Positions 9,599 through 58,910 of a stretch of 64,000 nt of DNA are shown here, piece by piece. The position numbers and the translations under genes were made by a program. The notes below the pieces were generated by a model that was not told the DNA's origin, searched no databases, and worked only from the letters and a program-made list of their open reading frames with translations. The first letter of the stretch is position 1. Each line of letters begins with the position of its first letter. This DNA comes from a virus, in IMG/VR virus record IMGVR_UViG_3300021963_000050, positions 1 to 64,000 of that record, one strand, 5' to 3'.

Positions 9599-10428
9599 TA
9601 TTGTTTTCTCTCATAAAAATTTATTGGTGCGGATGTGGTTCCTTTTCTCGTACCTAATGAACCATTATATGCGTAAACGATATAAGAATAATCCGTCCTA
9701 TCTATAATTACTTTATAATAAACATCTTCTTCTTCAACGTAAGGTGTCGTCGCGTTTACCGTTTTTGATTTATTAACAAAATCTATAACACTACCGTCTT
9801 TCGCATTGTAATATTTGGCGGTCATATAGAATGTGTTACCTGTGATATTGGTTTCACTAAATGGTGAATCATCAGCAAACCAAAAAAAGTACATATTTTC
9901 TGTATTTCTATAATTTGAACCAGTAAAAACTGGTACGTAGATAAAATCATTTAATGGTAGTGTTGCACCTGATGGAGTACCTGTATAATATATTCTTTCA
10001 CCTAAGGGTAGTGATAAATTTTTCGCAAAAACTAACCTTCTGTTTGTTTGGTTTGGTGATTGGTCATTGTTTGTTTTATAAAATTCTAATCTGAAAAAAC
10101 TTTCTGTTGATTGTTTTAACATTTTTGAATTTTCTTCCATGGTAATTGATACATCTTCATAATTTTGAGAGTAGTTACCAAGACTGTTTAAAAAATAAAA
10201 GTTATACCATATATCAGTTTGTTGATATGGAGTACCATAGGGTGGCATTTGTTCATACGAGGAATGTATATATCTTACGGTCTCGTAATTTTCTGTTGGG
10301 TTGATTATTTCATAAAGAATTTCTTGCTCCATTTCTTGGGCATTATCTGTCCATCCTAAATCAGTTTTAAACATCTGATTTGAAGAAATTAAAATGGATT
10401 GGTCGTTATTTTTAGCAAGAATTTTCAT
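9598..10428 (-). CDS. virion protein of unknown function, baseplate block
   Basis: A 276-residue protein with no recognised domain. It is rich in Tyr, Asn and Phe and has no Cys or membrane segment. A short fibre-like pattern of alternating hydrophobic residues runs through the C-terminal half, and the chain ends INFYERKQ, nearly identical to the ending NIRKQ of its downstream neighbour. It is spaced one base from the 586-residue gene upstream and overlaps the 388-residue gene downstream by one base. It occupies the stretch where T4 keeps gp8-gp12, so a wedge or short-fibre role is possible, but no sequence match supports a specific one. Confidence 0.5.
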   Translation of the reverse strand: MKILAKNNDQSILISSNQMFKTDLGWTDNAQEMEQEILYEIINPTENYETVRYIHSSYEQMPPYGTPYQQTDIWYNFYFLNSLGNYSQNYEDVSITMEENSKMLKQSTESFFRLEFYKTNNDQSPNQTNRRLVFAKNLSLPLGERIYYTGTPSGATLPLNDFIYVPVFTGSNYRNTENMYFFWFADDSPFSETNITGNTFYMTAKYYNAKDGSVIDFVNKSKTVNATTPYVEEEDVYYKVIIDRTDYSYIVYAYNGSLGTRKGTTSAPINFYERKQ

Positions 10429-10429
10429 A

Positions 10430-12190
10430 TTAACATTTAAACTTATTTACATTTTTAACCGCGTCTTGTTTATTTGTGTAAATGTTTTCATTTCGTAAAT
10501 AGAAATTGATGTCACTTTTTACATAATGAATATTGTTTATGAATGGATAGTTTGTCCCAAAACCCTCTGGGTCTATAAATCCATGGTCATATAAATCTCT
10601 CCATTTCCAAAGAGCTTCGTCTTCCATATATTTCGCATTCTGTGGTAATCCATAAACTTGGTTTGTTTTGGATGTTTCTATATAAGGGGAAAGTTGTCTT
10701 AATTTTACTCTGTGGTGTGGTTGATAAAACAACCCATACATGTTTGTAATTGAACCACCCGAAAAAGTACTTGTTGTACCTGTTTGTCCATAATCAAAAA
10801 CAAAAAGTGGGTTTGAAAATCTATGATATGCCTCACTTATTATTCTCTCTTGTAATTCTGTACGATTATACTCAACAAACGCCCCGTGTAAAACAGTGTT
10901 CAATGGTAAGTCTGTTCCTGATACAAAATTGTATGTTGTGGCACTAATTGTTCTACTAAATCCACTAGTTGTTATGGATGTTTCAGTTGAACCCGTTCCA
11001 TTAAAATGTTTATCAACCCAAGTATTGTGAAAATTAAATTTCCACCCAACTTTTGGTGGGTATTGAAAATATCCATTTCTGTTAGCTAATATGACTGTTA
11101 CATACAAATCTGTTGGTAGGTAACCTAAATTGTTTGTTAATCCTGTTAAAATAAATGGTTCTTTAAAATCATAAATTAAAGATTCCATCATGTTCCTCTC
11201 AACTAAAACGTCTGAAACTCCGGCACTATTTTCTAACAATAATTTTCTTTCGTTTTCCCAAATTGATGATTCAAATCCAATCTTATCTAAGATATAATCT
11301 TCTCTTTCTGTAAGTGTTTTATGTTTATGAACGTAGTAACTCGATGTTGAACCTGTGATGTTATTCCTATCAAGACATCTTTTACCAAAAACAACAGTCG
11401 ATAGTGTTGTTCCCGATGGTAATTCGGATTTTGATATTTCTAAAACATATTTTTCAGAATCATATATTGAATCCCCAACACTTATAATACTAAATGTTCT
11501 ACCTGTAACATTTACGGTATTGTTGAAACTTCCACCACTAAGTGTAATGAATTCACCTGATGACATTCCATGTTCAACGGGACTAGTAAATTTATAAGAA
11601 TTAGGTAAACTTTCGACTCTAAATGGTATACCGTCACCAGCAGTAAAACTAAATGAAGTCCCACCACTTAAAGTATATTTCATTGGATAGGTACTGTCCT
11701 GACCATACACATAGGATAAATAAACATTCCAATTGTGGTAAGGAGCATCTATACTTGTTATCGTGACATGTTCAGTTTCACCAGAATAAGTTATAACGGG
11801 TGTGTATGTTGTTAAAGATGATACCGTTTGTATGGTGTTCACTTGTCTGAATACATCTTTTCTTAGGAACGCAAATTCTTGATAAGGTAAAAACCCATCA
11901 AAATTATTATTACTACCATCTCCAACTAAATAAAGTCTCTTTAAAAGTGGGTTATATTCAGATGACCCACTATAAAGATTCCTAAAGACCATTTTTAATT
12001 TACCATGTATCTTATAATTGGTGCTCTCGTTCCTTTCTTTATTGAATAATTCGGCATTATTTAAGATTATCGTTCTATCACCTTCTCTTAAAAGATTTTC
12101 GGTTTCCTCTAATCCAACTCGAATCGTTTGGTCTTCATTAATTGAGCCAAAAAACTTTTTAGATGGTAATATGATTCTTTTTTTATCCAT
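10430..12190 (-). CDS. virion protein of unknown function, baseplate block
   Basis: A 586-residue protein starting with a basic segment (MDKKRIILPSKKFFGS). Thr/Ser/Gly-rich segments alternate with aromatic ones (for example NFHNTWVDKHFNGTGS). The length is close to T4 gp10 (602 residues), but I see no motif that identifies it. Its start shares one base with the stop of the 1377-residue gene, so expression is probably coupled to that gene. The C-terminus is hydrophilic and Asn/Lys-rich. I call it structural from context only. Confidence 0.5.
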   Translation of the reverse strand: MDKKRIILPSKKFFGSINEDQTIRVGLEETENLLREGDRTIILNNAELFNKERNESTNYKIHGKLKMVFRNLYSGSSEYNPLLKRLYLVGDGSNNNFDGFLPYQEFAFLRKDVFRQVNTIQTVSSLTTYTPVITYSGETEHVTITSIDAPYHNWNVYLSYVYGQDSTYPMKYTLSGGTSFSFTAGDGIPFRVESLPNSYKFTSPVEHGMSSGEFITLSGGSFNNTVNVTGRTFSIISVGDSIYDSEKYVLEISKSELPSGTTLSTVVFGKRCLDRNNITGSTSSYYVHKHKTLTEREDYILDKIGFESSIWENERKLLLENSAGVSDVLVERNMMESLIYDFKEPFILTGLTNNLGYLPTDLYVTVILANRNGYFQYPPKVGWKFNFHNTWVDKHFNGTGSTETSITTSGFSRTISATTYNFVSGTDLPLNTVLHGAFVEYNRTELQERIISEAYHRFSNPLFVFDYGQTGTTSTFSGGSITNMYGLFYQPHHRVKLRQLSPYIETSKTNQVYGLPQNAKYMEDEALWKWRDLYDHGFIDPEGFGTNYPFINNIHYVKSDINFYLRNENIYTNKQDAVKNVNKFKC

Positions 12191-15100
12191 TATTCTTGAG
12201 TCGGGAATGCACCTTTCGGTCCAAATAATTTTATGAATTTATCAATAGCAGTTGCTCCCGGTCTTAATCCAAAATAGAATAAGAATGGTGTGGAAAGAAT
12301 TTGTTTAGTACCTGTATAGTTTACGTCTGTTGGTTTTAATATAAAATCAACATCGAAATTCCAAGGTTTTGATTCCCAACCACCTAATTCACCTACTCTA
12401 ATCCATAAAGTACCACCTAATGGAGTCGCGGTGGTTCCTGATGTAATATGTAAAACGGTAAAACCTTCTTCTTGATTATTATAGTTCAAGTGAACGTCCG
12501 TGGTATCTTCTACATCAAATGAACCATCATTAACATCCGCACCTGCAATTGTAAATGTGTTACCCGAATAATCTTTAGTCATTGGGAACAACAAGTAATT
12601 ATAAGTGGTATCACCAGTGAATGCATAGTTATATGTCATCCCTTGTAATCTTTGAGAAACCACTGTTGAGTAATCCCATGATTGACCATATCCTTCACCA
12701 AATCCTTGACCTTTTTTGTCCCAATAAAAGAATGGAACTATTTGAGAAGATTCTGTTAATCTACCTGGTTCATTTAAACAAACTCTTACTCTATAACCTT
12801 CATCATCAAAAACAAAATTTATCGGCATCGGTCCATTTGCAGAACCTGATTGTGATTTGAATAGTTGTTGATAATCATCGGGGTCTAATATTGTTGGACT
12901 GTATTGACCGTAATATCTATTTTGTAAATCAAATTCTTCAATACCAACTTCGTTATTAATTGAAATAAGTTGTGTCACATCACCGTTTAAAATCTGTTTG
13001 TATGTGTTAAACGGATATGTAGACGTATACCCCGTATTTGAAAAGAAATCTTTATACCCAAACTCCGCATTTGTGTCGAGTCTATAATTGATATACAATC
13101 CCAACATTTCTTTAAAGTTTTGATATGAAGTTGGTCCTATATTTCTTACAACAGAACAATTAGGGTCTAGAGTTGGGTCAACACATATTTCTTTTATAAA
13201 CTCATCTCTCGGACCTAAATCCATAATTGTTGTTGGGTGTCTTAAAGTACTAAACTGCGAACCTGATGATGTTTTTTGAAAAATCGAACCATTCCATTTT
13301 GTGGACCTGTAGTAAAATCTTTTTACCGGTTCATTGGATGTTTTTTCTTTTACTTTATAGTAAACTAAGTTTTCACAATAATTTGTTCCTCTTACATTCA
13401 AATCTAAATTTTCTTCATCATCCCATCTCACTCTCGCTTTAAATGGGAACATATACAACGAACCCGCTAACCAATTATCAAAAAATGAATAATTTGCAAT
13501 ACCCTCACAGAATACTTTATTGACTAATTTTCTTCTAGCATATTCTCTAATTAATTTGAATTGCACGGGTCTATTGTCACCATGTGCAGCGGGTATTACT
13601 GTATAAACACCAAATCTAAATTCGGAAAATCCACTTCTAGTATCACATGGTGGATTTTTACAAGGATTTTTAGATAGGTTATTTGCTGCAACTTGACCAA
13701 CAATCATTAAATTTAAACTGTTACAATTAGTTCCGGGATTTGCGATAACTTGGGAAGTATTATTATAATCCGCGGTCACTCCTGACGCACAATAGGTTAA
13801 TGGTACTATACCACTATCATCATAGATTGTATTTTGAGATAAACACCCTTCTGGTAATGCACTACTATCAAATGAACTGATTGATGAGCCCGTGAAAGGA
13901 TAGTAGTTATCGTATATTTCATATGTAAAACCTGTCCAAACATAATCTTTTGGTATCGATTGGTTTCTCCAACTTAAATACGAACCAGTATCTTGAGCAA
14001 CATAACCCGTGGTTGAACCAGATACATATGTTGATAGATTTAACTCAAAGGTTGTACCGGTGGTTAATGTCCCCAATGTTGTTATGTCTGAACTTTGTGC
14101 GTAAGGGTTGGCGATATAGTACAATAACTTAACATAATAAGTTCTACCTGTGGCACTACCTGAGAGGTAATTGTTGTATATAGTTGTTAATGACTGACCA
14201 TAGGTGTATCCCGTGTAATTGTATTGGGTCAAACCTGAAGATGGTAATTCACTTAATATATATTCATCAATATTACTAATTGGGTCTGCAATGTAAACAT
14301 CAGTAACCGTACTATCGCAAGTTCCAACTACTGACGGAACAGCATCACCACCCGAATAAGCCATTGAACCATCTCTAGCACAGATTCCACTTGTTGGGGA
14401 ACCACTAAATGGTATTGAAACACTTTGTGGTGTGTTTGTTGTACAATCAATCCAATTATATGTTGTTGTACCTGTTGTTGGTACATTTAAATTATATGTT
14501 GTACAGTTTACTAAAAATCTTAATTTATCCCTAACCGCTCTACCCGAACCAACTTTTTGATAAATTAAAGACGGGTCACTTTCGGTTGGTGGGTTTTCAT
14601 TAAAAACTTGTATTTCATCACACGATTCACACTCGGGATAAACTACAGTACTAAGATGAACGGTACCCAAAGCTTGTAAAGGTTCAATGACCACACTATC
14701 GAAAAAATTAAATGGTCTCCAATTTATAATTGTAGCACCTAATGCTCGTATGTAAATACGAAAATCATACAGGAATTGAAATGGTATAATTATGATTTGT
14801 ATTGCACCAACAAAAGCGGTGTATATTACCCTTTCAAATACATTAATTATAATTGCCAATAAAATAGCAAAACTAAACTTTCTCCACGCGTAATTAATTG
14901 GTGGTGTAACTACACTTGATTCACAATCCTCTTCGGCTTTTGGTGCAATATCTTTAATACCTAAGAAATTATCTTTTTCACCTATAAAAAAGTGACCACT
15001 TCTATAAGAAGTCACCGAATATACCTTATTGTATGAGAATCTATAGAAATAATCTTCAGGGAAATAACTTCCATAAGTTTGGTTAAAAATAACCGAAGAA

Positions 15101-48174: not shown

Positions 48175-48198
48175 GTTCATTTATTGATTCTATTTTGG

Positions 48199-48206
48199 TA
48201 TATTTA
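48199..48206 (+). promoter_or_regulatory. weak promoter box before the SNF2 helicase
   Basis: Plus-strand TATATTTA, matching TAnnTTTG at 7 of 8 positions, ends 9 bases before the ATG at 48216. The expected TTTG at 19 bases upstream reads TTCA, so only half of the host-type promoter is present. Confidence 0.3.
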
Positions 48207-48215
48207 AGTTATTGT

Positions 48216-49970
48216 ATGCATAATAAGGTTCCTGAAATAGAGGCGAGGGAAATTTTATCTACTTACGAAGGTTTTAACAACCAATTAATCGAGTGGAAAA
48301 GAAAATTAATTGAATTAAAAGGTTTTCAATTAACAAGACCCCAAGCCGAGTATGTTTTAAAGTACCACGAGGTTGTTCCCCGTGTTGCTAAAAAATATAT
48401 TAATATTGTTGAGGGGTTTGGTGAAAAACTTATGGAATCTAAACACCTAACAAAACCACCTGAAAAAATTTGGTGTGAAAAATTGTTATGTGAAAGTGAA
48501 ATGGCATACCATATATGGGGTAAAGTTTTTGAAACTGAAAAAAATTACTCTATGTGGTTACCAAAATCCGCAATCATTCAAGAGGAAAAAAAATTAAATA
48601 GGGAGGTTGATTATTCTCCATATGATAAAAGACCACCGTTACCCCATCAAAAAGTTGCAATTGAAAAATTATTAGCCAATGATAAATTCATTTTGGCTGA
48701 TGATATGGGATTAGGAAAAACCACATCCGCAATTATTGCATCTTTAGAAAGTGGTGCAAAAAAGATTTTGATAATATGTCCCGCATCGTTAAAAATAAAT
48801 TGGCAGAGAGAAATTGAGAACTACTCAAATAGAAAAACATTAATTGTTGAGGGACGTAAATGGGGGTCAACTTTTGATTATTACATTATCAACTATGATA
48901 TTGTAAAAAATTATCATTCAACAGAAACACCCGAAATTGGTCAGGAAAATAACAATTCAATTATTAATGAAAAATTTGATTTAGCGATTGTTGACGAAGC
49001 TCATTACATTTCAAATACCACGGCACAACGAACTAAATTAATTAACGATATTTTAAAAAACATACCGAAAGTTTGGTTACTTACAGGTACACCAATGACA
49101 TCAAAACCAATTAATTATTATAATCTTTTAAGAATAGTTAATTCAAACGTCACATTAAATTGGCAGGGTTATGTTAGAAGGTACTGTGGTGGATATCAAT
49201 TTACTGTAAACAAAAAGAAAATTTGGAACACAGGCGGTGCAACTAATTTAGACGAACTTAGAATGAGAACTAAAAATCTTGTTTTAAGAAGAATGAAAAC
49301 CGATATATTGGATTTACCAGATAAAATTATCACCCCAATTTTCTTAGATTTAAAAAGTACATATTACGATGAAGAATTAGAAGATTTTTTAAGGATTACA
49401 AGTGAAGCGAAAAATAAAGAATCTTTGAGTATTACTATAAATCGTTTGATGAAAGTAAGACAAATTGTTTCACAGGAAAAAATTAATTATACCTGTGAAC
49501 TAATTGATAGATGTTTAGAACAAGGAAAAAAAGTAATCGTATTCACAAACTTTACCATGTCTTTAGACACGTTACATGAGAAGTATAAGAAAAACTCTGT
49601 AGTATTGGATGGTAGAATGTCTAAAGAAAAAAGACAACAATCTGTGGACCGTTTTCAAAATGAAGACAAGGTAAAGATATTCATCTCAAATATCGTAGCC
49701 GGTGGTGTTGGTATCACCTTAACCGCAGCTGAGGTTGTAATTATGAATGACTTATCGTTTGTACCCGCTCATCACAGTCAAGCTGAGGACAGGGCTTTCA
49801 GATATGGACAAAAGAAAAATGTATTGGTTTACTACCCAATATTTGAAAACACTATTGAGAAAATAGTGTACAATATGTTACAGAAGAAAAAGAATATTAT
49901 TGACCAAGTTATGGGCGACGGGGATTTCTCAGAGAGTTTTGCTCAATCACTTCTCAAAGAGATTCTTTAA
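48216..49970 (+). CDS. SNF2-family DNA helicase/translocase
   Basis: A 584-residue protein from the ATG at 48216 (MHNKVPEIEA); a TTG 21 bases upstream is less likely. The motor is complete: Walker A ADDMGLGKTT (about 161-170), IICPASLKINWQREI, DEAH box VDEAHYI (about 258-264), VWLLTGTPM, then the second RecA lobe with IVFTNFTMSL, VLDGRMSKEKRQQSVDRFQ, GGVGITLTAAEVVIM and QAEDRAFRYGQKKNV. This is the SNF2/SMARCAL1-like layout used for fork remodelling and annealing; in T4 the equivalent role is played by UvsW. The N-terminal 130 residues may bind DNA. Its end overlaps the convergent next gene by 24 bases. Confidence 0.9.
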   Translation: MHNKVPEIEAREILSTYEGFNNQLIEWKRKLIELKGFQLTRPQAEYVLKYHEVVPRVAKKYINIVEGFGEKLMESKHLTKPPEKIWCEKLLCESEMAYHIWGKVFETEKNYSMWLPKSAIIQEEKKLNREVDYSPYDKRPPLPHQKVAIEKLLANDKFILADDMGLGKTTSAIIASLESGAKKILIICPASLKINWQREIENYSNRKTLIVEGRKWGSTFDYYIINYDIVKNYHSTETPEIGQENNNSIINEKFDLAIVDEAHYISNTTAQRTKLINDILKNIPKVWLLTGTPMTSKPINYYNLLRIVNSNVTLNWQGYVRRYCGGYQFTVNKKKIWNTGGATNLDELRMRTKNLVLRRMKTDILDLPDKIITPIFLDLKSTYYDEELEDFLRITSEAKNKESLSITINRLMKVRQIVSQEKINYTCELIDRCLEQGKKVIVFTNFTMSLDTLHEKYKKNSVVLDGRMSKEKRQQSVDRFQNEDKVKIFISNIVAGGVGITLTAAEVVIMNDLSFVPAHHSQAEDRAFRYGQKKNVLVYYPIFENTIEKIVYNMLQKKKNIIDQVMGDGDFSESFAQSLLKEIL

Positions 49971-51101
49971 TGTATTCATCATAAAGTCAATGTCTTCTTG
50001 TTTTTTTGAGATGTTTTGAATTATCTCCACCCAAACATTGTAAATTTTTTGAATATCAAAATCTTCACTGTTTGAAGGTAGATTAACAATAACTTTATTT
50101 TCATCTTTAATAAAATTCAGATTCGTTTCCTCAGAAACTTCAAGTACAAACTCAACCTCATTTTTAGAACAATACATAAAAAACTCAAAGAAAATTTTTG
50201 AGTTAAACATGTCATCAATTTTTTCTTGCATCAATATGTTGTTTTTATTATATGTATACCAACCGTCCGATTGATTTATTATGGTATCTTCCTTTAGATA
50301 TAGAAAAATCATTTTATCAGGACTAACTGTATTGAATTTGAAATTGTAATTCAATGATACTAACACCAAAAAGTCAATACCTTTACCTATATAATCTTTT
50401 ACATCTATAATGTTTTTAAAACTGTTCCCTTGAAACTTTACAACTTTACTTTGTATTTTTTTTACTTTTGTTTCGTCTTCAATATTAACAGTAAACAAAT
50501 CACATCCATTAACCATATCAATTGACGAACCTCTAACTAAAGAGGTTCTATATATTTTAGCGGTCTTTATATTTTTTTTGAAATGATATTCAATACAAAG
50601 TTCACCATAAGTTCCTGAACCAATTGTCTTGGATGCAACATGAAAAAGTTCATAAAGAAAATCACTTGGGCCAAGTAACCTATGGTCAACAAACACTCTG
50701 TCTTTGTAATGTCTCAACCATTTAAAGTAATTCTTTATTTCCTTTTCAATATAATCAGGTGAATTATTTTCAAAAACAATTTCAGTTAATGGTTCACCAT
50801 TAAATTCATTAATCCCTTTTAAAAAATAATCTTGAAAAATCCATTCATTTAATTTTTCAACAATTTTTATATTAACAAAGTAATTTGTATTAAATTGATT
50901 TACTGGTGACCAAGAACCCTTTGAAGTTAGCACACCATAAGTTCTATTCTTTTCGCAGAATCCATACTGATTTATATTTCTATAACACTCCCGAAAAACC
51001 TCCCGCCATTCATCCATAAAAAGGTCTTTTATTGGACCTTTTATTGTACAAATTCTTTTTATATGGTTTTCAATGTTTCTTAGATTCCCGGTAGAATACA
51101 T
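49947..51101 (-). CDS. unknown protein, possible PD-(D/E)XK nuclease
   Basis: A 384-residue Lys/Phe/Asn-rich protein with no firm family. The middle shows a plausible PD-(D/E)XK core: an acidic helix YGELCIEYHF (about 162-171), GCDLF (Asp about 199) and KIQSKVVKF (Q-x-K about 216-218), in the usual E-x(n)-D-x(n)-Q/E-x-K order, preceded by the strand-turn RGSSIDMVN. I infer a nuclease fold. It is a lone minus-strand gene between two plus-strand genes, with the best Bacteroidota-type promoter in the window 21 bases before its ATG, so it is probably expressed early. Codon use is similar to the surroundings. Confidence 0.5.
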   Translation of the reverse strand: MYSTGNLRNIENHIKRICTIKGPIKDLFMDEWREVFRECYRNINQYGFCEKNRTYGVLTSKGSWSPVNQFNTNYFVNIKIVEKLNEWIFQDYFLKGINEFNGEPLTEIVFENNSPDYIEKEIKNYFKWLRHYKDRVFVDHRLLGPSDFLYELFHVASKTIGSGTYGELCIEYHFKKNIKTAKIYRTSLVRGSSIDMVNGCDLFTVNIEDETKVKKIQSKVVKFQGNSFKNIIDVKDYIGKGIDFLVLVSLNYNFKFNTVSPDKMIFLYLKEDTIINQSDGWYTYNKNNILMQEKIDDMFNSKIFFEFFMYCSKNEVEFVLEVSEETNLNFIKDENKVIVNLPSNSEDFDIQKIYNVWVEIIQNISKKQEDIDFMMNTLKNLFEK

Positions 51102-51121: not shown

Positions 51122-51152
51122 CAAATATACAGATATTTATTGGTAAATCAAA
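51122..51152 (-). promoter_or_regulatory. perfect Bacteroidota-type promoter of the putative nuclease
   Basis: Minus-strand TTTG (51152-51149), exactly 19 bases, then TATATTTG (51129-51122): both boxes and the spacer match the TTTG-N19-TAnnTTTG consensus with no mismatch. A plus-strand TATTTAT element for the divergent gene lies inside the spacer. Confidence 0.8.
51134..51140 (+). promoter_or_regulatory. TATTTAT element, 15 bases before the ATG at 51156
   Basis: Plus-strand agaTATTTATTGG, overlapping the spacer of the divergent host-type promoter. Early and late transcription would therefore compete here. Confidence 0.5.
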
Positions 51153-51155
51153 ATA

Positions 51156-52274
51156 ATGGCAACAACTGTAATTTCAAATGCTGAAAAACAAAAACTTTAC
51201 ACTCAAGTTTTTCACTTATTAGGTTTACCGGTGAGAGGTGTTGAACTTACGGAGGAACAAATGGATACCTTTTTAGAATTAGCGGTATCGGAGTATGAAC
51301 AATATGTGAGTGATTGGTTAATTGAATCACAGTGGTCAGCACTCGCTGGATTAAATGTTGATACTCAATCTTTAACCAGAGCTTTTACAACAAGAAGTTT
51401 AGATTACGAAACACAATATACTCACTCTTATTCTAAAATCGTTGGTCTTCAAACAGGTGGTGATAGTGAATTAAAAAAAGATTATTTCTCGTTAACCGCT
51501 AACACTCAAACATATACAATTCCTGCTGGTAGAGAAATAAACGAATTATTATGGTTCTCAAGAGCGGAATTAACCGATTCTATCGTTGACCCATTTTTAG
51601 GTGGATTTGGTGGTCTTGGTGGTGTTGCGTTCGGTGGTGTCGGTGGTTTTGCACAACAAGGTTCTTCGGGTTCATACTTTATGTTACCCGCCTATGACTT
51701 ATTGTTAAGAATGGGTGATAGAAATATCAAAAACCGATTAATAGGTGGAGATTTAACATACAGAATTACCGCAGGACCAAATGGAACTAAAATAGTTCAC
51801 CTATATAACGTACCTGGCGGTCGATTTGATTTTGGTTCAATACAGAATAACAGACAAAAAGTTTGGTATTGGTACTATGATACCACATCTCTTGACACTT
51901 GTTTAGATAAGAATAGTGGTATTGTTAAACTACCATCAGATGTTGAAACTGAAGAGTTAACATGGGATATGTTAAATAAACCCGCACAAAACTGGGTTAG
52001 AAAATATCTTATCGCGTATTCAAAAGAAGGTTTAGGTAGAATATGGGGTAAGTTCTCAGGAGACTTACAAGTACCTGATAGTCCAATAAAACTTGATTAT
52101 TCATCTTTACTACAAGAAGGAAAAGATGAGAAATTAAAACTTGTTGAGGAGTTAATGAATAGATTAGAAAGATTAAGACCTGACAAATTATTGGAAAGAA
52201 AAGGAATGGAAGCTGAAAACCTAAATAAGGCTTTAAAGTACAGACCATTCCAATCCCCATTCAACGTAATTTAA
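51156..52274 (+). CDS. neck/head-completion protein, gp13-like
   Basis: A 372-residue protein. The N-terminus FHLLGLPVRGVELTEEQMDT and the following EYEQYVSDWLI fit the gp13 neck family start (L-G-x-x-x-x-x-V-E-L-x-x-E-Q-x-x). The middle has the DYFSLTANTQTYTIPAGREI strand pair and a Gly-rich loop (GGFGGLGGVAFGGVGG, about 150-165). The C-terminal helix pattern around WDMLNKPAQNWVRKYLIA and GLGRIWGKFSG also fits. gp13 and gp14 close the head after packaging. It is unusual that this gene is on the plus strand, 3 kb from the gp14- and gp15-like genes. Its end overlaps the polymerase gene by 4 bases. Confidence 0.5.
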   Translation: MATTVISNAEKQKLYTQVFHLLGLPVRGVELTEEQMDTFLELAVSEYEQYVSDWLIESQWSALAGLNVDTQSLTRAFTTRSLDYETQYTHSYSKIVGLQTGGDSELKKDYFSLTANTQTYTIPAGREINELLWFSRAELTDSIVDPFLGGFGGLGGVAFGGVGGFAQQGSSGSYFMLPAYDLLLRMGDRNIKNRLIGGDLTYRITAGPNGTKIVHLYNVPGGRFDFGSIQNNRQKVWYWYYDTTSLDTCLDKNSGIVKLPSDVETEELTWDMLNKPAQNWVRKYLIAYSKEGLGRIWGKFSGDLQVPDSPIKLDYSSLLQEGKDEKLKLVEELMNRLERLRPDKLLERKGMEAENLNKALKYRPFQSPFNVI

Positions 52275-55656: not shown

Positions 55657-56691
55657 TTAAAATCCATTTGTTGAAGGATTATAAAAAACTAAACCTGTCA
55701 CATTTGTTGTTTTTGTTATGGTCGGCGATGAGTAACTAAATGTCATAACATCACCACCACCAATTTCACCAAATTGTATTCTTATTGGATAGTAATTTCC
55801 AGCAACTAATGAAAACGTAGCCGATACTTCCTGAACCCCATGAGCACCACCATTGTTTATATTTGAATTAGCGGTGGTAAAACCTGATAATGCATTTGCA
55901 CCAATCCAAAGATAAGAACCATCATCACTTGATAAGAAGAATGTATATGTTTCTGTTGTTGTTGCCTTAAAATACCCCAACCATTGACAACTAAAATCAG
56001 ACCCGTCATTACTTGATGGTTCAGTTATTGAAGTTGTTTGAACCGAGGTGGCAGGATTTGTACCAAAGGTCGTTGGGGTTGCAGTTGCGAAAAACGCCGG
56101 ATTTTCGCTATGATAACCAGAATATGTTGTTTTATATAAACCAGCACTAAACGCACTTGTTGGAGTTGGAGTTGGTGTTAATGTTGGGGTGATAGTTGGT
56201 GTTAATGTCGGTGTTATTGATGATGTTGGAGTGATAGTTGGTGTTATAGAAGGTGTTCTACTTGGTGTTAATGAAGGTGTGACAGTTGGTGTTGGTGTAA
56301 CTGTAGGTGTTAGTGAGGGAGTAACGGAACTTGTCGGTGTAATTGATGATGTCAACGACGGTGTGACCGACGAGGTAAGAGAAGGTGTTACCGAAGGTGT
56401 TCTACTTGGTGTTAATGAAGGTGTTATACTTGGTGTTGGTGAAGATAATACGGTAGACGGGGTTGTGGAACTTGTTGGTGTCGGTGAAGGTCCCGTTTCA
56501 ATAACATATAAAGTACATGTACTACCAAAAGCCGGAAAAAACAATGAATATGTCCCATAAAAATAAGGTGCAACATAATCGTATGGTAAAACTTGTGTAC
56601 CCAAATTAATAGTCCCACCCGTATCGGGATAGTATGTAATAACCGCCGATTGACCAGTATAATTTGTTGAGACTATTTTTAAAGTATCCAT
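55657..56691 (-). CDS. fibre/adhesin with Pro-Thr stalk and PA14-like tip
   Basis: A 344-residue protein in three parts. Residues 1-68 form a head paralogous to that of the repeat fibre at 3155 (shared [13 protein letters not shown] and FP, 32 of the first 59 residues identical by hand count). Residues about 69-178 form a Pro/Thr/Ser stalk of [12 protein letters not shown] units. Residues about 180-344 form a PA14-like domain: LYKTTYSGYHSENP, SCQWLGYFKATTTETYTFFL, SSDDGSYLWIG, the G-A-H-G loop and YYPIRIQFGEIGGGD. PA14 domains often bind glycans. It is the complete, compact version of the giant repeat fibre and probably binds the host surface. Confidence 0.75.
   Translation of the reverse strand: MDTLKIVSTNYTGQSAVITYYPDTGGTINLGTQVLPYDYVAPYFYGTYSLFFPAFGSTCTLYVIETGPSPTPTSSTTPSTVLSSPTPSITPSLTPSRTPSVTPSLTSSVTPSLTSSITPTSSVTPSLTPTVTPTPTVTPSLTPSRTPSITPTITPTSSITPTLTPTITPTLTPTPTPTSAFSAGLYKTTYSGYHSENPAFFATATPTTFGTNPATSVQTTSITEPSSNDGSDFSCQWLGYFKATTTETYTFFLSSDDGSYLWIGANALSGFTTANSNINNGGAHGVQEVSATFSLVAGNYYPIRIQFGEIGGGDVMTFSYSSPTITKTTNVTGLVFYNPSTNGF
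56158..56488 (-). repeat. Pro-Thr stalk repeat of the PA14 fibre
   Basis: Same kind of 12-base unit as at 1-2960, here about 110 residues long. The plus strand shows the matching GVTEGV-type frame, which is not a gene. Confidence 0.85.
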
Positions 56692-56723: not shown

Positions 56724-58094
56724 TTAAAGTCCTACCATGCTATCCACACAATCTTCAACACATTCAATTATATCGTAATTTGGTTTAATATCAACCAAAT
56801 AATGATGTCTTACCCTTACGTAGTTTAATGGTTCTTGATAATATTGGACTCTTTTAAAATTAAAACAAGAGGTACCCATATTATGAATTCCACCTGAATA
56901 TTGAGTACCACCAGCCCATGATTGTATAAATGGTTGGTCACCTCTAGTTGATGGTATAACTTCTTCCCATCCTTTTAATTTATAGATTGTTCTGCCGTTT
57001 AAATAAATTTTTAAAGTACCCAATCTTCTATTTCTTTCTAACGCCCATTTCTTATTTAATTCTTCCGCAGTTGTATAAATAGTTGTTTGTGTTGATGTTA
57101 CTGCGGTGATAACAGTATCGGTATATGGAATAGTTTTTATTCCCGGTATTAAATCATTCCACCCACCATCATTTTCTAAATTACAATCCGTATAATACTT
57201 ATCTCGTTCAAAAGTAATTGTAACATTAAAATCTTTTGACGTACCACTAACACATAATACGGGTGTTTGACCCGATGAAGTATAATATGATTCTGTATAA
57301 CCACTATCGGTCACACAAACACCTGAATATCTAATTGCTCTCCATTGTATTCTACCATCATTTGTGAATGAAAATGATAGATTATTATCTGCGTAATTTG
57401 ATATTGAACTCTCATTTCTAACACCTAAATAATAAATCGTCCTTCCACTTGTCCAATTAGAACCATCTTTATTAAGTACCAAATCAATTGTCCAACCTTT
57501 TTCATTTCTTCTCTGTACTTTGTAAGAACAATTATCAGTTCCAGCACCATGATTTATTTGATATGCCCATGGTTTTGCGGTTGGAATTGGGTCTTGAGGA
57601 CAACAATTATCACTGATAATTTCTGTGACACAAGGATATTTGGCACCAATCCCATTAAAATTTGCAACATTTAGAGAATTTGGATTGGATGCGGGGTCAT
57701 TATAAATGTTCGCATTATGAACAAAATAATGTTTATAACCACTTCCATCGATGTATTCATAAACATCATTCTCTAAAATTAAATCTGAATTTTGTAGTTG
57801 GGTTGTAAATCCACTATAAGGTAAAACCCAAGACCAACCTGAAAATAATGAACCTGTTATATAAGAGGTTAAATTCACTTCAAGTAGGGATATAGTATCC
57901 CTTACACAATCAGTTCCGGTCATACCTGTTGTGTTAATAGTCAATCCTGTATATGATATACTATTATCCAAATCCAAAACCAAACTATCATAATCTAATT
58001 CAGTTTTAGAAATTTCGTAATCGTAATATTCCGAAGAATCGAGTTGTAAATCTAATTTACTCCCCCAAAATTTAAGTATGTTTTGACTATTCAT
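56724..58094 (-). CDS. virion protein with lectin-like (ConA/LamG) region
   Basis: A 456-residue beta-rich protein with many Tyr, Ser, Thr and about ten Cys. The middle (GWTIDLVLNKDGSNWTSGRT, FSFTNDGRIQWRAIRYSG) and the later TLKIYLNGRTIYKLKGWEEV followed by GGIHNMGTSCFNFKRVQYY follow the strand order of a concanavalin/LamG-like sandwich, a fold used for sugar binding in fibre proteins. It is the first gene of the three-gene adhesin cluster, with a TATTTAT element 8 bases before the ATG. A role in receptor binding or fibre structure is inferred. Confidence 0.6.
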   Translation of the reverse strand: MNSQNILKFWGSKLDLQLDSSEYYDYEISKTELDYDSLVLDLDNSISYTGLTINTTGMTGTDCVRDTISLLEVNLTSYITGSLFSGWSWVLPYSGFTTQLQNSDLILENDVYEYIDGSGYKHYFVHNANIYNDPASNPNSLNVANFNGIGAKYPCVTEIISDNCCPQDPIPTAKPWAYQINHGAGTDNCSYKVQRRNEKGWTIDLVLNKDGSNWTSGRTIYYLGVRNESSISNYADNNLSFSFTNDGRIQWRAIRYSGVCVTDSGYTESYYTSSGQTPVLCVSGTSKDFNVTITFERDKYYTDCNLENDGGWNDLIPGIKTIPYTDTVITAVTSTQTTIYTTAEELNKKWALERNRRLGTLKIYLNGRTIYKLKGWEEVIPSTRGDQPFIQSWAGGTQYSGGIHNMGTSCFNFKRVQYYQEPLNYVRVRHHYLVDIKPNYDIIECVEDCVDSMVGL

Positions 58095-58151: not shown

Positions 58152-58910
58152 ATGGATAAATACATTAAAAATATTATTGAGGAAACTTTTGCGTCCAAAA
58201 AACAACAAAGATTCTTTTATGCCAAGGCGAACGACAAATCAACATCAAAGAAAGAAAGAAACAAATGGTCCAAATGGGCTAAAGAATATTCTGACGATAC
58301 CGACTTTGAAAAAATACCAGAAAAGGTTGAAACTGAGGTAGATGAAATAGTTGACGAAAAAGGTAATATCGCTAGAAGAAAAACACCAAATACAAAATCA
58401 AGTAAAGGTGGTTCAAAATCAACGACTGACAAAGTGGTATACACTGGAGCTGGGTCAATGGGTATTCACGGTGTTCATGGTACTCACACATCTTTAAGAT
58501 ATTGGGCGGAATCTGATTTAAGTAAAGCTTTAGGTTATAAAAATACTTTGGGTCAAGATGAGGACATTGAAGATGCATATGAATATTTTGAAGATGACCT
58601 TGGTATGGGTGATGATGAAAGTAAAGAAAGATTATCATCATATGGTTACGATGAAAATTTAAAAGGTGATAAAGTAAGATTAATAGAAAACCCAAAAAAA
58701 TTTGTAAAAGATTACGTTGAAAGTGTCATAAGAAAAAAATCATCCTCAGAGGATTTGGTTAAAAAAGACCAAACCGAAGACATTAAGGGTGAATTAAATC
58801 CAATTATCAAAAGACAAATCACTTCTTTAAAAAATACTTTAGTTAAAAATAATTTGTCAGTTGAGGATGTAATTGACATTCTTAAATCAGAAGACGAAAC
58901 CGATGAATAA
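58152..58910 (+). CDS. unknown charged protein, first gene of plus-strand late block
   Basis: A 252-residue highly charged protein. The N-terminal ASKKQQRFFYAKAND motif is a short pattern shared by several small phage proteins. A glycine/histidine stretch (GAGSMGIHGVHGTHTSLRYW, about 98-117) may bind metal or form a turn. An acidic stretch (QDEDIEDAYEYFEDDLGMGD) and a helical tail follow. No family is recognised. It shares an 8-base overlap with the next gene, and a late-type element lies 18 bases before the ATG. A capsid-internal or scaffold-like protein is a guess. Confidence 0.6.
   Translation: MDKYIKNIIEETFASKKQQRFFYAKANDKSTSKKERNKWSKWAKEYSDDTDFEKIPEKVETEVDEIVDEKGNIARRKTPNTKSSKGGSKSTTDKVVYTGAGSMGIHGVHGTHTSLRYWAESDLSKALGYKNTLGQDEDIEDAYEYFEDDLGMGDDESKERLSSYGYDENLKGDKVRLIENPKKFVKDYVESVIRKKSSSEDLVKKDQTEDIKGELNPIIKRQITSLKNTLVKNNLSVEDVIDILKSEDETDE

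Follow-up and report, generated by a model that had tools for sequence, protein, structure and literature searches.

We analysed a gene for a predicted nuclease in a virus genome of 115,864 bases (IMG/VR record IMGVR_UViG_3300021963_000050), of which we took positions 1 to 64,000; this whole stretch of 64,000 nt is called the window. The gene occupies positions 49947-51101 on the minus strand and encodes 384 residues, which the open reading frame, family alignments and an AlphaFold2 model describe as a PD-(D/E)XK nuclease with a small domain fused at its C-terminus. Its two conserved flanks are a SNF2-type helicase gene (48195-49970, plus strand; Pfam SNF2-rel_dom 3.7e-26, phrog_62 9.3e-109) and a head-tail adaptor gene (51156-52274, plus strand; phrog_211 1.3e-09), the latter serving as the anchor for finding relatives. 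The original prediction, made from the letters of the window, described a lone minus-strand gene flanked by two plus-strand genes and overlapping the helicase end by 24 bases, and this is what we find: the stop end of the nuclease gene overlaps the end of the helicase frame by exactly 24 bases (49947-49970). Its placement 'between convergent genes' is half right, because the nuclease gene is convergent with the helicase and divergent from the adaptor, which starts at 51156 on the opposite strand, 54 bases from the nuclease start codon. Overall, the observation was partly confirmed and its interpretation partly supported.

The open reading frame is a real conserved gene. Close relatives of the protein are encoded at 21 IMG/VR loci, with 74-99% identity. 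The ratio of non-synonymous to synonymous substitution rates (dN/dS) lies between 0.06 and 0.15 in 16 of 17 nuclease pairs, those for which dS could be estimated; the window/L048 pair gives no value, dS being saturated. Positive selection between close alleles was not seen in these 16 pairs. At the loci of the same 17 pairs the adaptor has dN/dS values of 0.016-0.093. Because of these values, we conclude that the nuclease is kept functional yet evolves faster than the adaptor.

Conserved residues and the predicted structure place the window protein in the PD-(D/E)XK nuclease superfamily, an assignment that holds on both grounds. Conservation was counted over 65 intact family members, the distant ones found by anchoring on the adaptor. 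Residues W64, T72, G163, G191, D195, G199, D201 and K219 are invariant in all 65, Q217 is present in 64 and N68 in 63. The original prediction had read the order E...GCD...QSK as that of a PD-(D/E)XK nuclease. The aspartate and the QSK part stand: D201 (codon at 50499-50501, minus strand), a predicted metal ligand, and Q217-S218-K219 (codons at 50445-50453, minus strand), a predicted Q-x-K motif, provide the conserved D and (D/E/Q)-x-K that define the superfamily. The glutamate does not, since E167, its proposed active-site residue, occurs in merely 21 of the 65 proteins. The same note would have given up the assignment had the D/Q-x-K residues varied in homologues; they are invariant save for Q217 in a single protein. 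The family is diverse, with 8 classes at 40% identity and 25 at 60%.

The model of the window protein, built from 48 family sequences, has a mean predicted local distance difference test score (pLDDT) of 91.9 and a predicted template modelling score (pTM) of 0.90. A first model from nine close sequences was poor (pLDDT 52.1) and was not used. The model separates an N-terminal domain (residues 1-146 approximately; 50664-51101, minus strand), which contains the invariant residues W64 and T72 and the near-invariant N68, from the PD-(D/E)XK core (residues 147-294 approximately; 50220-50663, minus strand), which was delimited by the modelled elements and structural matches. The core consists of a helix (148-177), strands at 181-185, 202-206 (just after D201) and 213-221 (carrying Q217-x-K219), a helix (234-239) and a strand (244-249), i.e. 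the alpha-beta-beta-beta-alpha-beta arrangement of the superfamily. Hence, the predicted core has the restriction-endonuclease fold on which the original prediction had made its call depend. To rank known structures, the PDB list of Foldseek was re-aligned with VIA-align over model residues 157-294 approximately. NhoI (Z 8.7), I-Ssp6803I (Z 8.6), Hjc (Z 8.3) and a chain of the SPARDA complex (Z 8.3) are tied at the top of this list. A best Z of 7 to 8 is a common value, and the absence of other folds from the list is no evidence. The I-Ssp6803I match (PDB 2ost) aligns 112 of 148 residues with a root-mean-square deviation of 3.4, and most of the lower rows are nucleases of the PD-(D/E)XK fold. 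BstEII, first in the Foldseek PDB list at E = 0.12, was not used. Among the predicted viral proteins of BFVD, Foldseek matched two phage proteins over about 300 columns, A0A8D9CCA0 (E = 2.6e-12) and A0A6J5L953 (E = 9.4e-10).

Sequence searches added little to this picture. The window protein and 34 family members had no significant match in Pfam, PHROGs, NCBIfam or PADLOC, and library matches of single members at E values of 0.004-0.01 were taken as chance. The sole hint from curated families is a sub-threshold match to DUF4365, which we take to belong to the PD-(D/E)XK clan, in 3 of the 34 members (best E = 0.0015). Profile searches of PDB sequences with the nuclease family gave no significant match, and tblastn gave none in a phage collection searched with five members (those of the window, L095, L076, L180 and L119) or in a plasmid collection searched with the window protein. 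A collection of genome contigs yielded 185 stretches fitting the pattern and no confirmed relative, and a search with the single variant L108 returned L108 alone. Of the two checks proposed at the outset, structure prediction recovered a restriction-endonuclease core and profile searches found no significant family. The window gene very probably encodes a working DNA-cutting enzyme.

We then took a census of the slot between helicase and adaptor. A first set anchored on the adaptor held 80 loci, at 79-100% identity; in total 159 loci were anchored, of which the 98 that were non-duplicate and reached the helicase were analysed. The nuclease is fused to a C-terminal small domain in 47 of these loci (including two deleted copies, L046 and L100). 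In 16 the small gene is distinct, encodes 63-82 residues and lies just downstream of the nuclease gene, and in 3 the nuclease has no recognised small part (L104, L106 and L187, although the C-terminus of L187 resembles the small domain of L208). The remaining 32 loci have the small gene alone, with 64-94 residues as called, and no slot is empty. The survey of relatives suggested by the original prediction finds the nuclease present at 66 loci and absent from 32, in one position flanked by the same two conserved genes, as is characteristic of the optional genes of free-standing homing endonucleases. In 49 records, namely G000 and those of 48 among the 80 first-set loci, a profile search detected no second nuclease copy; some of these records span 200-310 kb and many others are fragments. 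Some copies are broken, as expected for optional elements. L016 (one of the 21 close relatives), L037 and L046 have a frameshifting deletion early in a copy otherwise 98-99% identical to the window gene; in L016 its ends share 7 bases, and its net size, judged from two BLAST pieces, is about 209 bases. This deletion may be either a natural loss or an assembly error. Relative to L101, L100 has an in-frame deletion of 255 bp that removed the catalytic core and left the N-terminal and small domains.

The inheritance of the slot content is discordant with that of the backbone, another feature of free-standing homing endonucleases. One example is the pair L119 and L120, whose adaptor and helicase proteins are 100% identical. 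At the DNA level the two match at 99.87% over a stretch of 6,921 bp that stops where the small gene ends. On the other side they match at 95.5% over 4,528 bp, starting about 45 bp before the adaptor; the cassette is the sole break between these matching stretches. L119 carries a nuclease of 283 residues and a small gene of 67 residues, and L120 a small gene of 69 residues alone, the two small proteins being 55% identical. Similarly, L193 (small gene only), L196 (nuclease and small gene) and L176 (fused) have flanking proteins that are 98.6-99.8% identical, and L187 and L198 have flanks 99.5% and nucleases 18.7% identical. In 16 pairs the flanks are at least 95% and the nucleases less than 50% identical. 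The converse also occurs: the nucleases of L095 and L208 are 72% identical, with flanks at 80.5%. On a FastTree phylogeny of the flanks (99 rows), a minimum of 12 changes is required to explain nuclease presence, and of 20 for the four slot states.

The small protein takes part in these exchanges. The domain fused to the window nuclease (residues 296-384; 49950-50216, minus strand) is homologous to the stand-alone small genes by tblastn. A profile built from nuclease-bearing proteins only detects the stand-alone genes with E values of about 1e-10 to 1e-14, which shows that fused and stand-alone forms are one family; by profile, it occurs in 95 of the 98 loci, with or without the nuclease. Ten small proteins had no significant family match, and a match to Erp_C below the cut-off (E = 0.00094) was taken as chance. 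In small-only loci the protein is mildly acidic (mean net charge -5.4, range -9 to +3). Among pairs with flanks at least 95% identical, which are not independent observations, the small parts are 91% identical when slots are of the same type (39 small-only and 51 same-nuclease pairs), 53% when the nuclease is present in one partner only (15 pairs) and 39% when the nucleases differ (10 pairs). The small gene thus moves together with the nuclease.

Upstream of the nuclease lies a late-promoter-like element, AATAAATA (51134-51141, minus strand). Its ATAAATA core, oriented toward the nuclease or the small gene, is kept in all 98 loci, and 66 have TATAAATA, the sequence of the T4 late promoter. ATAAATA is also enriched upstream of open reading frames in the window (6 of 41, against 0.63 expected). 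The original prediction had instead assigned to the gene the strongest host-type promoter of the window. The pattern in question, TTG-N19-TATATTTG, is present (51122-51151, minus strand), but the claim in this form is unsupported, because patterns of this type are not above chance in the window (5 observed against 9.8 expected from Markov shuffles) and TATATTTG is kept in just 42 of 98 loci. The ATAAATA element, which resembles the T4 late promoter and is present at every locus, is the better promoter candidate. A divergent gene pair elsewhere in the window (56724-58094, minus strand, and 58152-58910, plus strand) also has ATAAATA sites facing both ways, as at the nuclease and helicase genes; these are candidate late promoters.

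The surveyed loci have other insertions. A LAGLIDADG intein interrupts the SNF2 helicase at its Walker A motif in L086 (4625-5680; Pfam LAGLIDADG_3 4.5e-08, Hom_end 7.9e-08), L075, L079, L080, L098 and further loci; the helicase of the window has none. An intein-like candidate of about 340 residues is found at the DTDG motif of the family B DNA polymerase of L093 (about 9752-13732, minus strand). L077, L086, L088 and L093 have about 600 additional bases between the adaptor and DNA polymerase genes, an optional insertion absent from the window and most relatives. Elsewhere in the window, the gene at 55657-56691 (minus strand) encodes a protein with a long low-complexity repeat rich in Thr, Pro and Ser, with PTPT and SLTPS units.

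Our best explanation, which we favour tentatively and with a little less than even confidence, is that the slot of this lineage of uncultured tailed phages contains an optional nuclease that replaces alleles, acting like a free-standing homing or marker-exclusion endonuclease. When a related genome with a different or nuclease-free slot allele coinfects the cell, the nuclease would cut that genome, and repair or recombination from the genome of the nuclease carrier would replace the cut allele with the whole cassette, i.e. the promoter tail, the nuclease and the small gene. The nuclease may be a weapon between related phages. This reading is favoured by an optional gene at a fixed place, its discordant inheritance, the kept active site, the broken copies and a fold like that of I-Ssp6803I. 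Among the three roles offered by the original prediction, the presence/absence pattern and cassette swapping likewise favour the selfish or competitive endonuclease over host-DNA degradation and anti-defence. Computation shows the fold, the invariant active-site residues, purifying selection, the single fixed locus and the swapping of cassettes on near-identical backbones; DNA cleavage, its target, its link to exchange and the role of the small protein are inferred.

Several observations weigh against it. In structural alignment I-Ssp6803I scores no better than restriction enzymes and resolvases, with which it is tied, and a Foldseek search of PDB gave no match at E = 0.001 or better. Homing usually carries flanking sequence along, and T4 homing leaves co-conversion tracts, whereas none were seen at this slot. 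We made gapped comparisons of the first 100 bp beside the cassette with distal sequence, and saw no co-conversion footprint in 31 different-cassette pairs, in which the adjacent sequence is not clearly the more divergent (+2.4 points on the adaptor side and -0.6 on the helicase side); the cassette-adjacent bins of 84 same-type pairs gave +3.3 and +1.2 points. L119 and L120 are identical right up to sharp cassette borders. The difference in divergence between left and right flanks is larger, but only weakly, in different-cassette pairs than in same-type pairs (medians of 1.62 and 0.57 for 11 and 25 pairs, all disjoint; p = 0.046). Small-only cassettes are exchanged without any nuclease (L166 compared with L156 and L160), and the joint movement of the small gene would be unexpected if a homing gene had merely inserted beside a resident gene. 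No footprint would be left, however, by a donor whose flanks are nearly the same. Still, because the footprint is absent and small-only alleles are exchanged, the exchange may be partly or wholly ordinary recombination between conserved flanks. Taken to its end, this makes the slot a passive hypervariable cassette that tolerates recombination, with the nuclease uninvolved in its own exchange, a view to which the sharp borders, the missing footprint and the small-only exchanges lend some weight. We consider it improbable: the catalytic D and K are kept in all 65 intact copies, and therefore the activity is selected for something.

What the activity is selected for can be read in other ways. The small protein could be an immunity protein, protecting against a nuclease that hits the DNA of a co-infecting phage or the host, and small-only loci would then be orphan immunities. 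The presence of the small protein in 95 of 98 loci, its covariation with nuclease type and its mild acidity in small-only loci agree with such a module. Yet the small part is separate in 16 nuclease-bearing loci, unrecognised in 3 and in one chain with the nuclease in 47 of 66, and this fusion argues against immunity; to our knowledge, no known immunity protein is chained to its nuclease in this way. Moreover, no small part is recognised beside the nuclease of L104 or L106, and the nucleases of L179 and L181 are 42% identical to that of L198 while their small proteins are 83-91% identical. This makes an immunity module doubtful. We give slightly less credence to a natural 'cleave-and-rescue' element, in which a nuclease linked or often fused to a divergent form of the slot's small gene would destroy the rival allele in co-infecting genomes and supply a resistant replacement. 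Such an element would explain why nuclease and small gene almost always move jointly. Its family would then be one of locus-restricted homing-type enzymes of the PD-(D/E)XK class, whose N-terminal domain (W-x3-N-x3-T) is unmatched among the families searched.

An arms race with the host is about as unlikely. An anti-host or anti-defence nuclease would degrade host or mobile-element DNA, and its alleles would swap as defences differ. Extreme allelic diversity, with the 8 and 25 classes given above, purifying selection within classes and an own conserved promoter-like element are what one would expect of it. But the nuclease is missing from 32 of 98 loci with no second copy in the 49 records, PADLOC gave no notable family match (best E = 0.0039, single members), and a general host-DNA nuclease needs no exchange at a single slot. 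The absence from 32 of 98 close relatives, again with no second copy in their searched records, also argues against a housekeeping enzyme of phage DNA metabolism, such as a Holliday-junction resolvase or a packaging-associated nuclease. The core does resemble Hjc (Z 8.3) and the RecU/PrfA structures (Z 6.3-6.7), and the gene adjoins a helicase gene. However, the nucleases can share less than 20% identity on near-identical backbones and are transcribed opposite to the helicase, so that we regard a housekeeping role as very improbable.

If allele replacement by the nuclease is correct, uncultured phages have, at a single locus, a set of nuclease alleles that are exchangeable and differ strongly from one another, which would be a natural experiment on nuclease-driven allele replacement and on competition among co-infecting viruses. 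The homing-type enzymes of phages would also gain a fold that is little represented among them, with an example of its fusion to a resident phage gene. The near-identical L119/L120 and L176/L193/L196 backbones, which differ at the cassette, make the question directly testable.

The open-access literature, exclusive of subscription papers and preprints, gave no description of this nuclease family or of a PD-(D/E)XK phage locus that swaps alleles. The class of enzyme and the behaviour are each known; what we did not find in that literature is their combination, a PD-(D/E)XK nuclease at a single locus, fused to and exchanged with a small gene, in 8 deep allele classes. The fold is unusual for a homing role, as is the fusion to a resident small gene. 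I-Ssp6803I, a bacterial PD-(D/E)XK homing endonuclease, is intron-encoded. It has the core fold in common with the window nuclease (Z 8.6), but its 148 residues are too few to accommodate the additional domains at the two ends of the window protein, and profile searches of PDB gave no sequence match between it and the nuclease family.

Among T4-like phages, SegH/Hef reportedly stand in place of MobC/MobE. A review of T4 describes the free-standing homing endonucleases SegF, SegG and MobE, which cause marker exclusion, cut at distant sites and in some cases have late promoters upstream; these GIY-YIG or HNH enzymes bias inheritance in mixed infections and replace one another (PMC2988022). Like them, the window nuclease belongs to optional genes lying between two conserved genes and exchanged or replaced among related phages (PMC2988022). 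Unlike them, it is a predicted PD-(D/E)XK enzyme, of a family usually fused to a co-exchanged resident small protein. Phi-PA3 gp210 is an intron-encoded HNH homing endonuclease that acts in interference competition (PMC11620839); the role proposed here, of a phage nuclease directed against a related phage in the same cell, resembles it. It differs in its family and in its intron within an RNA polymerase gene, and its target and advantage were shown experimentally (PMC11620839), whereas those of the window nuclease are proposed from computation. The homing endonucleases of ICP1 belong to the T5orf172 and HNH families, with several per genome, and the available portion of that study does not describe a fusion to a small gene (PMC10448857). 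In the same portion, the homing endonuclease gene (HEG) islands of ICP1 parallel the slot described here: nuclease genes mark the borders of genetic exchange, one locus can carry distinct nucleases (about 30% identity) in a nearly unchanged context, and one nuclease has an in-frame deletion (PMC10448857).

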